From: an uncultured Cytophagales bacterium
GTDB taxonomy: Bacteria; Bacteroidota; Bacteroidia; Cytophagales; Thermonemataceae
Length of the DNA stretch: 59,025 nucleotides
NCBI GenBank assembly: GCA_938002655.1
Contig: CALLAC010000011.1
Span: 1 to 59,025, forward strand
Direction: 5' to 3'
In this document: piece by piece, positions 1-3,382 of the stretch
Layout of the letters: every line of letters begins with the position of its first letter
Numbering within the stretch: position 1 is the first letter of the stretch
The notes under the pieces: model-generated
Told to the model about the DNA's origin: nothing
Databases searched by the model: none
Seen by the model: only the letters and a program-made list of their open reading frames with translations
Program-made: the position numbers and the translations under genes

Positions 1-1100
1 TCGTCCACAATCTTGGCGTATATCTGTGTTGTTTTCAGGTCTTTGTGTCCTAACATTTTGGAAACGGTGTAAATATCTGTTCCGTTAGAAAGTTGCAAGG
101 TTGCGAAGGTGTGGCGAAAACAATGAAAAGTAATGTTTTTAGTTATTCCTGCGGCTCCAATCCATTGGTAAAGGTGTTTGTTATGGTAGGCTGAATATTT
201 CAACCCTTCAAAAACTTTGGTTGTGGGTTCTTTCCTTTCACCCAACAACTTTACTGCTTGTTCTGAAATTGGTAAAACCTCAACGCCTTTGGTTTTCTTT
301 TGGCTGAAATTCAGGAAATACCCTCGCCCCTCAATGTATTCAATTTCACCCCAAACCATTTTTTGAATATCTGAAAACCTTAACCCTGTAAGGGCTGAAA
401 ACAGGGCGGCACGTTTCAATAAATCATTGTTGCACGGGGTTTTTACAAGCGTATTGAGTTCCTCAATAGTTAAGTATTCCCGTCTTGTTTCGGCTACCTT
501 AATGGGGCTTATTTTAGCGTTCAGGTCGGTTTGTAACATGCCGTCCTTATAGGCTTGTTTCAATGCGGCTTTTACCTTATTGAAATACGAAACGACTGAA
601 TTTTGCGAAAGGGTTGTTTTGTTGCTCTTTTGGCTTTTGGTAGTTAATAGGTATTCTTTGAAGTCCTCTAAAAACTTTTCGTTGAGGTCGGCAAACCTCA
701 ATTTTCCGTTTGTAAACGCTTCAATGTAGTTGAGTGCTGAAAACCAATTATCGTGGTTACTCGCCTTGCGTTTGCTCGCTAACTTTCTGAAATACTCAAT
801 AAAACATTGTTCGCCTAATTCCTTTTTACGCAACTGTTCTTTTTCGTATTCGCTGTAAATTTCAGGCTTATTCAAAATGTTTTCCCGTTTTTGGCGTATA
901 CTTTCGCCCAAATACAGGGTTTCAGTATTATGCTGTTTTTCAATGGGTGTTTTGGGCTTCTCAAAAATGTAAAGCCCTAAAAATTCCCTTCTTGTGGGTT
1001 CGCCTGTTTGGGGGTGTGGTATTGCGGGGTAAAAATCTAAATACAGGCTTTGCCGTCCCTTGCTAATTTTCTTTTTCCTTAATGTTACTTTTATAGCCAT
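1..1100 (-). CDS. Tyrosine recombinase (phage-type integrase), 3' end cut by window
   Basis: Site-specific recombinase that would integrate or excise a mobile element by a covalent phosphotyrosine intermediate. I translated it from ATG at 1098-1100 leftwards: 366 codons are visible and the frame is still open at base 1. An N-terminal AP2-like arm and a SAM-like core-binding domain (about residues 95-190) precede the catalytic domain. All catalytic residues of the family are present: R241 (TGLRFSD), K268/K269 (SQKKTKG), H326 and R329 (HCFRH), H352 (LGHKD) and the nucleophile Y361 (TQIYAKIVD). Only a short tail should be missing. The organisation is typical of integrases of Bacteroidota conjugative transposons and genomic islands. 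It lies 34 bp downstream of the HTH gene on the same strand, and a 9-bp repeat cluster fills that gap. The enzyme looks intact; its target site is inferred, not shown. Confidence 0.93.
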   Translation of the reverse strand, partial: MAIKVTLRKKKISKGRQSLYLDFYPAIPHPQTGEPTRREFLGLYIFEKPKTPIEKQHNTETLYLGESIRQKRENILNKPEIYSEYEKEQLRKKELGEQCFIEYFRKLASKRKASNHDNWFSALNYIEAFTNGKLRFADLNEKFLEDFKEYLLTTKSQKSNKTTLSQNSVVSYFNKVKAALKQAYKDGMLQTDLNAKISPIKVAETRREYLTIEELNTLVKTPCNNDLLKRAALFSALTGLRFSDIQKMVWGEIEYIEGRGYFLNFSQKKTKGVEVLPISEQAVKLLGERKEPTTKVFEGLKYSAYHNKHLYQWIGAAGITKNITFHCFRHTFATLQLSNGTDIYTVSKMLGHKDLKTTQIYAKIVD

Positions 1101-1113
1101 TGTCCTTTATGTT

Positions 1114-1139
1114 TAGTTACTAAAGTTACTAAAGTTACT
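1114..1139. repeat. Three tandem AAGTTACT units between HTH gene and integrase
   Basis: The unit AAAGTTACT occurs twice and TAGTTACT once, head to tail, at a 9-bp period. The cluster starts 14 bp upstream of the integrase start codon and runs into the stop codon of the upstream gene. A 9- to 10-bp direct repeat just before an integrase gene suggests a binding site for an excisionase or repressor, or arm sites for the integrase. That role is inference; the repeat itself is directly visible. Confidence 0.7.
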
Positions 1140-1755
1140 CTCTAAAAAAAGTGTCTAAATTTTTTTTGTTCAACTCAAATATTTTGTCAATGATTGGTTT
1201 TGGTACATAGACGTACCAACCTTTTTTTATTTTGGGTATATTTTCCCTTTTGATAAGTTTTTGCAAGGCGGTTTGAGAAATTCCGAACTTTTTTTGTACT
1301 TCACCTATGGTATAACAGTCGTTAATATCAAACGCTCCTGCCTGTTTCCATTCTTTTAAATCCTGTTTTTGCTGTTCGGGTATGTTTTCAATTTCGGGAA
1401 CTTCGTTAAATAGCTTATCAAGGTCGCAACGTCTTACAATGGTTTTTTTTATCAATATGTTTGTTGCTTTCAGCTTTCCCGTATTGATAAGTTTATACAC
1501 GTTTTGACGGGAACAACCTACCAACTTTGAAACATCTGAAACAGTCAAAAACTCTTTTGCTTTCAGCTCCTCAATAGGTTTGTTTTTTATTTGTTTGGTT
1601 TCGGCGTTTGACCTTTGCACCTTTTCGGCTCGTTTCATAGCCTTGTGTGCCAAACTTGCACATCTATGGGAACAGTACTTTGTTACTGTGGTTCGGGCTG
1701 TGAACTCATTACCGCAATACTGACAAATACGCTGAACCTGTATATTACTGCTCAT
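1135..1755 (-). CDS. Mobile-element regulator: zinc ribbon plus two excisionase-type HTH domains
   Basis: Probable DNA-binding excisionase or repressor of the mobile element, 206 residues. It has a four-cysteine zinc ribbon (C11, C14, C28, C32). A MerR/excisionase-like helix-turn-helix follows at about residues 69-117 (LTVSDVSKLVGCSRQNVYK), then a second one at about 147-193 (CYTIGEVQKKFGISQTALQK). Such helix_turn_helix_17 proteins often lie beside integrases in Bacteroidota elements; the combination of a ribbon and two HTHs in one chain is less usual. The gene is read in the same direction as the integrase, 34 bp ahead of it, so the two are probably co-transcribed from the promoter at 1847-1880. 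The protein could act as an Xis, as a transcriptional repressor of int, or as both; the sequence does not decide. Confidence 0.82.
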   Translation of the reverse strand: MSSNIQVQRICQYCGNEFTARTTVTKYCSHRCASLAHKAMKRAEKVQRSNAETKQIKNKPIEELKAKEFLTVSDVSKLVGCSRQNVYKLINTGKLKATNILIKKTIVRRCDLDKLFNEVPEIENIPEQQKQDLKEWKQAGAFDINDCYTIGEVQKKFGISQTALQKLIKRENIPKIKKGWYVYVPKPIIDKIFELNKKNLDTFFRE

Positions 1756-1818
1756 TGTATCTTTTTTTACTGTTTTATCACCCTTGAAAATGTTCCATTC
1801 TGTTTAAAAGTGTGTTAT

Positions 1819-1836
1819 TTTGTAAACTTTGTAAAC
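1819..1836. repeat. Tandem TTTGTAAAC pair upstream of the HTH gene
   Basis: Two perfect head-to-tail copies of TTTGTAAAC lie between the predicted promoter and the start codon of the HTH gene. They lie where an autoregulatory operator would be expected. Their function is inferred. Confidence 0.6.
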
Positions 1837-1842
1837 CAATGA

Positions 1843-1899
1843 GGTACAAATTTACTCAAAAAAATAAAACTTTTCACAAAGGTACAAAAAAGGTACAAA
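1843..1899. repeat. Three copies of GGTACAAA around the HTH-gene promoter
   Basis: GGTACAAA occurs at 1843-1850, 1881-1888 and 1892-1899. One copy overlaps the predicted -7 box and two lie just upstream of the -33 box. The arrangement resembles operator sites for a repressor or arm sites of a recombination complex at the element end. No function is proven. Confidence 0.5.
1847..1880 (-). promoter_or_regulatory. Bacteroidota-type promoter for the HTH-integrase unit
   Basis: On the minus strand a TTTG box (1877-1880) is followed after 22 bp by TAAATTTG (1847-1854), matching the TTTG/TAnnTTTG consensus of the Bacteroidota primary sigma factor. It would give a leader of about 85 nt to the start codon at 1755. 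The tandem TTTGTAAAC pair falls inside that leader. Confidence 0.5.
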
Positions 1900-1944
1900 A
1901 GACAATAAAATAAAACAAAATAAAACAACATAAAAAAAACAAAA

Positions 1945-1968
1945 AAAAGCCTTTTTTTAAAGGCTTTT
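1945..1968 (-). terminator. Hairpin terminator downstream of mnmE
   Basis: AAAAGCCTTT and AAAGGCTTTT form a 10-bp stem with a TTTT loop. On the minus strand it is followed by a long T tract, as expected for intrinsic termination of mnmE, whose stop codon is about 40 bp upstream. Confidence 0.8.
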
Positions 1969-2008
1969 CCACGTTTTTTACTTTTTCGTTTTGCGTTGTT
2001 TTTATTAG

Positions 2009-2026
2009 TTACTTTCCAATGCAAAA
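2009..2026. other. Putative attachment site: conserved 3' end of mnmE at the element junction
   Basis: On the mnmE strand this reads TTTTGCATTGGAAAGTAA, encoding the invariant end FCIGK-stop. The 3' end of mnmE (trmE/thdF) is the integration site of Salmonella genomic island 1 and its relatives, whose 18-bp core, as I recall it, differs from this at about three positions. A tyrosine recombinase unit lies immediately beyond the gene. The second copy of the repeat would be left of the window, so an att site here is inferred. Confidence 0.4.
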
Positions 2027-3382
2027 TTTTGAAAAAATGTAATTCAGCAAGTCTTCGTTGCTTACCTCACCGATAATTTCTCCCAAATGCCGAACAGCCT
2101 CTCGAATATCTGCCGCCAATAAATCCGTTGTAATTGCCGAATCAATATCTAAGAGCACTTTTTGCAGAGATTGTTGCGTTTTGGCAAGTGCTTCGTAATG
2201 CCTTACATTGCTGATAACTATATCTGGATGGTTTATTTTTTGCTCTTTTACAAGCCCAATAAGGGCATTTTTCAGTTTTTCTATTCCTTTTTGCTCTTTG
2301 GCAGAAATACACAAAGCCTTAGGGATTTGTTCAAGTTCGGCAATTTTTTCGGCAGAGAGTTTATCTGTTTTATTGAACAAAATAAAATAAGGTTTTTGCA
2401 ATTTTTGCAATTCTTTTTGCAGAAAATCAAGATTTTCGTTCATTTCCGAGCTATCTATAAGGTATAAAATGAGCGAGGCTTCTTGCATTTTTTGCTTGGC
2501 ACGCTCTACGCCAATAGCTTCAATAGTATCTTGCGTTTCACGCAAGCCTGCTGTATCAATAAATCGGAAACGAGTACCCTCCAGAGTAATTTCATCTTCA
2601 ATAATATCGCGAGTAGTGCCTGCAATATCGGAGACAATTGCCTTTTCTTCTTGTAATAACGTATTGAGTAAGGTAGATTTTCCTGCATTAGGCTTTCCGA
2701 CAATAACCGTAGAGATACCATTCTTGAGAACATTACCCCAAGCAAAAGACTGCAAAAGTTCATTTACATATTGTGTAACATTTTGCAAGAAATTTTTTAG
2801 TTCTGTTCGGTTGGCAAATTCTACATCTTCTTCGGCAAAATCAAGTTCTAATTCTACCAGTGCCGCAAAGCGAATCAGTTCAGCTCTTAATTTTTGGATT
2901 TTCTGTGAAAAGCCACCTCGCATCTGTTTCATTGCAATTTGATGAGAGGCCTGAGAAGTAGCGGCTATCAAATCGGCAACAGCTTCGGCTTGTGCTAAAT
3001 CAAATCTACCATTCAAGAAAGCTCTTTTGGTAAATTCGCCTGGTTCTGCCATTCTTGCTCCTTTGGCAAGTAAAAGTTTCAGAATTTGCTCTACAATATA
3101 TGGCGAGCCATGACAGGAAATTTCTGTGCTATTTTCTTTTGTAAAAGAATGAGGTTCTCGGAAAATACTCACTAAGACTTCGTCAATTATTTCACCATTT
3201 TCGCTCTGAATAGTGCCAAAATGAATGGTATGCGAAGATACCTGGCTTAAATCTTTACCTGAAAAAATTGCATTGGTAATTTCGATAGCTTTTTTGCCTG
3301 AAACTCTAATTACTGCTATAGCTCCTATACCAGCAGGTGTAGCAGGGGCAACAATGGTATCTGTAACTGAATGCCTAAACAT
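2009..3382 (-). CDS. mnmE: tRNA uridine-5-carboxymethylaminomethyl modification GTPase MnmE
   Basis: With MnmG it installs the carboxymethylaminomethyl group at C5 of the wobble uridine of certain tRNAs, in the cytoplasm. At 457 residues it has the family's usual length. The N-terminal tetrahydrofolate-binding domain covers about residues 1-120. The embedded G domain has a P-loop GKPNAGKS at 229-236, a G2 region IAGTTRD, DTAG at 276-279 and an NKTD motif. The chain ends in the invariant FCIGK with catalytic Cys454. It lies 18 bp downstream of the MATE transporter gene on the same strand, and a TAATTTTG box sits in that gap. Its 3' end abuts the mobile element at 1-2008, but the reading frame is complete. 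Confidence 0.97.
   Translation of the reverse strand: MFRHSVTDTIVAPATPAGIGAIAVIRVSGKKAIEITNAIFSGKDLSQVSSHTIHFGTIQSENGEIIDEVLVSIFREPHSFTKENSTEISCHGSPYIVEQILKLLLAKGARMAEPGEFTKRAFLNGRFDLAQAEAVADLIAATSQASHQIAMKQMRGGFSQKIQKLRAELIRFAALVELELDFAEEDVEFANRTELKNFLQNVTQYVNELLQSFAWGNVLKNGISTVIVGKPNAGKSTLLNTLLQEEKAIVSDIAGTTRDIIEDEITLEGTRFRFIDTAGLRETQDTIEAIGVERAKQKMQEASLILYLIDSSEMNENLDFLQKELQKLQKPYFILFNKTDKLSAEKIAELEQIPKALCISAKEQKGIEKLKNALIGLVKEQKINHPDIVISNVRHYEALAKTQQSLQKVLLDIDSAITTDLLAADIREAVRHLGEIIGEVSNEDLLNYIFSKFCIGK

Follow-up and report, generated by a model that had tools for sequence, protein, structure and literature searches.

Why does a tyrosine recombinase gene stand directly beside the 3' end of mnmE in an uncultured Cytophagales bacterium (Thermonemataceae)? 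The window analyzed here is the entire contig CALLAC010000011.1 (C11; 59,025 nucleotides) of a 2.64 Mb genome in 44 contigs, and an initial annotation, made from its letters alone, had proposed that a mobile element ends at this position. We agree with that proposal: with a probability of about 0.93, a compact integrative element (an estimated ~8 kb) used its own tyrosine recombinase to enter the final 18 bp of mnmE, and bases 1-2026 form one of its ends. The reading draws on several observations: the mnmE tail is directly repeated at either end of the element, two congeners have the site empty, many other Bacteroidota show a matching arrangement, and integrase and mnmE similarities are out of step with each other. 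The features of the window that the argument needs are the following:

2009-3382, minus strand: mnmE, the host gene with the insertion site; frame intact, 457 aa; MnmE_helical 1.3e-54, TrmE_N 2.1e-44.
2009-2026, minus strand: mnmE-side attachment repeat TTTTGCATTGGAAAGTAA, the final 18 bases of mnmE; exact copy on a second contig (C27:41955-41972, minus strand).
1-2026, no strand: putative mnmE-side portion of the integrated element; the rest would lie at C27:41955-47422 and in an assembly gap.
3-1100, minus strand: tyrosine recombinase (integrase), C-terminus truncated by the contig start; Arm-DNA-bind_5, Phage_int_SAM_5, Phage_integrase 7.1e-21.
1135-1755, minus strand: protein of 206 aa, Zn-ribbon-like with a helix-turn-helix (HTH) domain; CxxC-rich N-terminus, HTH_17 2e-16.
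1117-1149, plus strand: 33-bp element repeat TTACTAAAGTTACTAAAGTTACTCTCTAAAAAA; one copy on C11, three on C27.

The mnmE gene is complete in the window, its protein ends in FCIGK before a TAA stop codon, and the first 2,026 bases of the window, assigned to the element, abut that stop codon. The exact 18-mer TTTTGCATTGGAAAGTAA, which the initial annotation had also read as the FCIGK-stop end of the gene, was found at two sites in the 2.64 Mb, C11:2009-2026 and C27:41955-41972, both on the minus strand and thus in direct-repeat orientation, while a reversed-pattern control gave no match genome-wide. To the left of the C27 copy lies chromosomal DNA, with an NAD-dependent epimerase (Epimerase 7.5e-41) and a CAAX protease (Rce1-like 2.8e-19), and to its right 5.45 kb of the element run up to the contig end. 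The second copy that had been suggested as a check is thereby present at the other end of the element, which, as had also been stated, is not in the window. A third place resembling the mnmE tail, with 2 mismatches, was noted at G000:C1:410806-410823 (L003, L008).

Two congeners, G026 and G028 (mnmE 88% and 85% identical), show the site without the element. In both, the epimerase and then the CAAX protease follow mnmE directly, with 1 base between the mnmE stop codon and the start codon of an epimerase that is 85% and 80% identical, respectively; in our genome the epimerase start codon lies 2 bases past the far 18-mer. Since the gene found directly behind mnmE in these relatives lies beyond the far repeat here, the element has separated mnmE from its next gene. 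The third congener, G027 (mnmE 71% identical), has neither an integrase nor an epimerase within ~1.5 kb of mnmE and neither supports nor refutes the reading, so that the unoccupied site expected of a tyrosine-recombinase integrative element was seen in two of three congeners. Across 30 mnmE loci among relatives, our own included, an integrase was present at 2 (our own and G036), the epimerase at 2 and neither at 26. Of the outcomes named beforehand as fatal to the proposal, a missing second copy or integrase and HTH genes as core neighbors of mnmE, neither was seen.

The same arrangement recurs across the phylum. A search of the integrase against 84,980 GTDB species genomes gave 27 loci, 23 of them with mnmE, and 22 of these 23 passed a check of strand and distance, the other (L041) holding an integrase fragment only. 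The FCIGK-stop pattern was searched in 25 genomes, corresponding to 26 of the 27 loci (L042 left out), and 14 of the 25 carry two mnmE-tail copies on one contig, 6,190-15,175 bp apart, that bound an element and in the first of which mnmE ends. Direct repeats at both ends, one of them the end of the target gene, were thus found for our element and 14 others. Elsewhere the contig ends close to the mnmE tail, within 1.8-2.6 kb in G010, G016, G019 and G023 and at 3.9 kb in G020; G022 has its integrase without mnmE beside it, and in G004 the pattern recurs a third time, 29 kb away, with no mnmE, integrase or HTH match in the stretch read around it. Among 395 Bacteroidota genomes drawn evenly from the phylum, 63 had an integrase match at E<=1e-40 and only our own exceeded 55% identity, yet mnmE lay directly upstream at 16 of the 29 best loci (our own excluded), where integrase identity was 39-50%. 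Close relatives of this integrase are therefore rare in a random draw, while the use of mnmE extends to these more distant integrases. Two genomes (L028/L031 and L040/L056) have an occupied mnmE plus a further integrase copy at another place. The second copy in L028 (5020-5300) adjoins a phosphoesterase-like gene and its core is degenerate; in L040 (5690-5860), where the integrase is broken, the junction resembles far end plus core plus near end, as in an attP or a tandem remnant. L056, counted among the 14 above, lies at a second site in the L040 genome and has an integrase broken to a short frame. Among the carriers found in this work are the cultured, non-pathogenic Pedobacter sp. BS3 and Cyclobacterium roseum.

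The integrases have a history that differs from that of mnmE. In all but one of the 231 pairs formed by the 22 mnmE-linked loci, integrase identity exceeded mnmE identity (medians of 72.6% vs 50.6%), with a correlation of 0.10, and between Pedobacter and Vaginella the integrases are 97% identical while the mnmE proteins are 52% identical. Integrases this similar beside mnmE genes this different must have moved between orders. On a tree of 57 integrases (L041 dropped, L042 never entered), on which flanks of ~1.5 kb may conceal some mnmE neighbors, the mnmE label was clustered, with 8 changes against a shuffled mean of 14.2 and none of 500 shuffles that low.

The paired repeats of the 14 complete elements, in which base differences were counted by hand and distal copies had been found by a pattern demanding FCIGK-stop coding, suggest how the ends were formed. 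The mnmE-side stop codon is TAA in 14/14, and the distal one TAA in 9, TAG in 4 and TGA in 1; the last nine bases come in three versions beside mnmE (GGAAAGTAA in 11/14) and in six at the far side. Paired copies differ at position 3 in 6/14, at positions 6 and 9 in one each, at positions 12 and 15 in four each and at 17/18 in five, and the L047 pair is identical. These differences fit a strand exchange within about positions 4-11 of the 18 bp, with host DNA to the left and element DNA to the right of the exchange on the mnmE side, and the opposite order at the far end. Both ends of the element can be recognized by their adjoining sequence: something like CCACCACAAAACAAAC comes after the mnmE-side repeat, and (A/G)TTACT stands before the far repeat in most cases.

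The two contigs are linked by more than the 18-mer. The 33-bp repeat TTACTAAAGTTACTAAAGTTACTCTCTAAAAAA occurs once on C11 and three times on C27, and the genome has no other copy at <=3 mismatches; its confinement to these contigs ties both halves to one element. The integrase frame is open to the contig start with 366 codons in the window, and because a relative at 91% identity has 380 aa, about 14 C-terminal residues should lie outside it. The recombinase that had been called intact-looking is so in its domains and in the readable residues R, K, HxxR, H and Y, which we take to be catalytic, but not in its C-terminus, lost at the contig start. The truncated protein at the end of C27 aligns with the protein encoded after the integrase of L054, starting at residue 127 of the latter. 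From the missing codons and the L054 spacing, the gap between C27 and C11 would be ~0.46 kb and the whole element ~7.95 kb, if nothing further lies inside the gap. Bases 1-150 of the window have no second copy anywhere in the assembly. The C27 part of the element holds:

a 213-aa protein with no Pfam match;
a DUF6371/Zn_ribbon_16 protein;
a 709-aa protein with BT4734-like_N, D5_N and DUF5906, best PHROG match DNA primase (2.3e-92);
an HTH_17 protein;
at the contig end, a truncated protein of which the C-terminal 160 aa are present.

Several observations weigh against this reading. The two halves of our element lie on separate contigs and are joined by inference; its two 18-bp copies are identical, hence bases supplied by the element are invisible in this genome; and neither a circle nor excision was observed. 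Four of the 27 integrase loci (L028, L038, L040 and L042) lack mnmE, and the integrases of L028 and L040 are located at other sites. In L058-L062 no second tail copy was found at <=2 mismatches in the stretch read; that search was limited for L058, L060 and L061, where the contig stops 8-11 kb past mnmE, and it covered ~18 kb of L059 and ~11 kb of L062, which has a broken integrase. Because the search pattern fixed the first and second codon positions, only third positions and the stop codon were free to vary in the attachment pairs. A single integrase clade of mnmE users finds no support: the label needs 8 changes, and integrases with other or unassigned sites are interspersed on the tree.

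The gene content of the elements points to their kind. Read in the orientation of mnmE, the recurrent genes are an HTH protein, the integrase, a variable protein of 240-520 aa, a second HTH_17 protein, a replication module, a DUF6371 protein and a 195-aa protein without a match, and the replication module is one of three: a D5_N/DUF5906 primase-helicase, AAA_25 or DUF3987. Among 119 proteins of >=100 aa (of 139 frames of >=60 aa) from 14 elements, with 25 of 76 Pfam families listed, HTH_17 was counted 27 times, Phage_integrase 14, DUF6371 13, AAA_25, D5_N and DUF5906 5 each, and DUF3987 and Phage_AlpA 3 each. Single elements carry restriction-modification genes and metal-efflux-type families as cargo. 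The ribbon/HTH protein beside mnmE, which the initial annotation had described correctly, matches the PHROG "excisionase and transcriptional regulator" (phrog_66, 1.8e-13). Scans for transfer and packaging functions (Pfam, PHROGs, NCBIfam, PADLOC) gave no such gene in the core: conjugation genes and terminase, capsid or packaging genes were absent from the core clusters and from the families listed, a scope that leaves aside genes of single elements and, for conjugation, the gap in our own. A full conjugation set is unlikely in 6.2-15.2 kb. The small protein of cluster c7 was considered as terminase-like and dropped, the scans giving no terminase match; a DUF5681 protein (3e-9) in L055 (15120-15395) clusters with the c7 small protein of other elements.

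Short tandem arrays, often of 9 bp and with an element-specific unit, were seen in several elements (L043-L051 among those listed), with units such as AAAGTTACT, CGTAACACC/GTACGAACG and AAGTGACTC. Several lie near the junction of the replication and DUF6371 genes, and 10-bp arrays precede the HTH gene in some; in our own element the positions noted alongside them are C11:1117-1149 and C27:42896, 43067 and 44134. The unit AAAGTTACT is present in 6 of the 14 complete elements and in ours, where 0.02-0.19 would be expected (one strand, letter shuffles). These arrays look like iterons or regulator sites.

Taken as an integrative element, the locus may work as follows. The integrase would recombine a circular attP with the mnmE tail as attB; past the exchange point the element would supply the bases, including the stop codon, leaving the FCIGK end unaltered, and the original host tail would be displaced to the far end, here just before an epimerase gene that would once have formed a unit with mnmE. 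Of the other genes, those for the HTH proteins could encode an excisionase and a regulator, and the D5-type primase/helicase module could copy the circle after excision. To pass between cells the element probably needs a helper, either a conjugative element or a phage, because no transfer or capsid gene turned up in the core set. Most likely it is an integrative element that integrates and replicates with functions of its own and relies on a helper for transfer. We extend this only tentatively, at chances clearly below even, to a phylum-wide Bacteroidota family of relaxase-less hitchhikers at the mnmE tail that rewrite the last codons with the tails of earlier hosts, exchange replication modules, bear element-specific tandem arrays and are moved by helpers.

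How such an element might travel separates the alternatives. An integrative mobilizable element (IME), moved through an origin of transfer (oriT) by a conjugative helper and possibly without a relaxase of its own, comes close to an even chance without reaching it. IMEs are common in Bacteroidota and some hitchers have an oriT only, according to the accessible parts of PMC5704250 and PMC11389934, and Salmonella genomic island 1 (SGI1), at the same site, is described as moved by conjugative plasmids in the text available from PMC2297512. On the other side, no relaxase was found in the core clusters or among the 25 of 76 Pfam families listed; oriT was not sought.

We regard a phage satellite that relies on a helper phage for packaging as unlikely. 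Compact size, an integrase, AlpA-like/HTH_17 genes and primase/helicase genes are typical of phage satellite content, and the elements resemble satellites in all of these. Nonetheless, no terminase, capsid or packaging family is among those listed, no relative of the integrase was confirmed in the IMG/VR viral contigs, and whole-length integrase matches listed from a phage collection were 33-43% identical. Equally doubtful, in our judgment, is a stranded remnant that has lost its mobility. Its DUF6371 gene is short (262 aa vs 329-560 in most relatives), a ~170-bp stretch is tandemly duplicated beside that gene (C27; L006 about 2787-3128), and the circle is unseen; against this, the stretch read shows no interruption in the integrase, HTH or primase genes or in the ends, and the 18-mers match each other exactly. 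The idea that mnmE simply has the integrase and HTH genes as ordinary fixed neighbors, with the second 18-mer arising by chance or from an unrelated repeat, has almost nothing left to recommend it: an integrase beside mnmE in many genomes could alone be old synteny, but the 2.64 Mb hold just two exact copies of the 18-mer, in the expected orientation and with the expected flanking gene, 28 of the 30 mnmE loci read in relatives lack an integrase match alongside, integrase and mnmE identities are uncoupled, and the empty sites of G026 and G028 refute it.

An integrative element at this position matters beyond one genome. The mnmE gene is a candidate general safe harbor, because its last codons are so constrained that any element with the same end bases can rebuild the gene. 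The elements are also natural pairs of integrase and attachment site for Bacteroidota, where, to our knowledge, site-specific tools are scarce. Without known transfer genes, they offer a testable case of mobile elements whose mode of movement is unexplained.

The closest known system is SGI1, whose site the initial annotation had likened to this one, and the likeness holds. According to the accessible parts of PMC2297512, PMC9035990 and PMC5704250, a tyrosine recombinase integrates SGI1 at the 3' end of mnmE (trmE/thdF) between 18-bp direct repeats, and the attP tail replaces the last bases of the gene and leaves the host tail at the far end (PMC2297512, PMC9035990). Our element likewise occupies the 18 bp that close mnmE, and its tail-replacement geometry matches. 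In the available text of PMC2297512, the attP of SGI1 departs from attB at positions 9 and 12, the differences remain in the far repeat, strand exchange is placed upstream of position 9, and a secondary site and tandem arrays are reported. In SGI1-type islands the last nine bases beside trmE are element-derived and nearly constant, whereas those of the far repeat vary by host, as far as the accessible part of PMC9035990 describes; the nine element-side bases of the SGI1 cluster are GGGAAGTAA there, vs GGAAAGTAA in 11 of the 14 elements here. SGI1 differs in its gammaproteobacterial host, and the elements described here are set apart by a short gene set (integrase, HTH, replication) in whose core no relaxase was found. 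We do not file our element in the SGI1 family, the comparison resting on gene content, which differs. The initial annotation's further suggestion of an unrelated integrase family reaches past the evidence, which shows for our integrase the Arm-DNA-bind_5/Phage_int_SAM_5 build; it and IntSGI1 are both tyrosine recombinases, a likeness by description only.

In E. coli, 777 of 5,374 matched genomes lacked a single place covering at least 80% of a 1,001-base mnmE-tail region (mnmE-tnaC), and the interrupted matches listed stop near the mnmE end. IntSGI1 was sought beside E. coli mnmE, and the two loci opened hold another gene and no integrase.

The trmE islands of Proteus, Vibrio and Shewanella (GIPmi1 and others) share the site, an integrase, an excisionase, a helicase and restriction genes in the available text of PMC9035990; unlike ours they belong to Gammaproteobacteria, and the likeness rests on descriptions. 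The 10K genomic island of Riemerella anatipestifer is similar in size, has a Bacteroidota host and has a tyrosine integrase shown to integrate and excise, yet it uses a 53-bp site in an Arg-tRNA gene (PMC6764341, in its accessible part). The accessible part of an IME review names trmE solely for SGI1 and MGIVchHai6 (PMC5704250). Our literature search, which covered titles and the openings of abstracts, with subscription papers and supplements outside its scope, gave no report of mnmE/trmE insertion in Bacteroidota, although TIGER-type catalogues may hold some. The mnmE tail was already recognized as a hotspot for SGI1 and its relatives in Gammaproteobacteria, and here a distinct set of small elements uses it across several orders of Bacteroidota.

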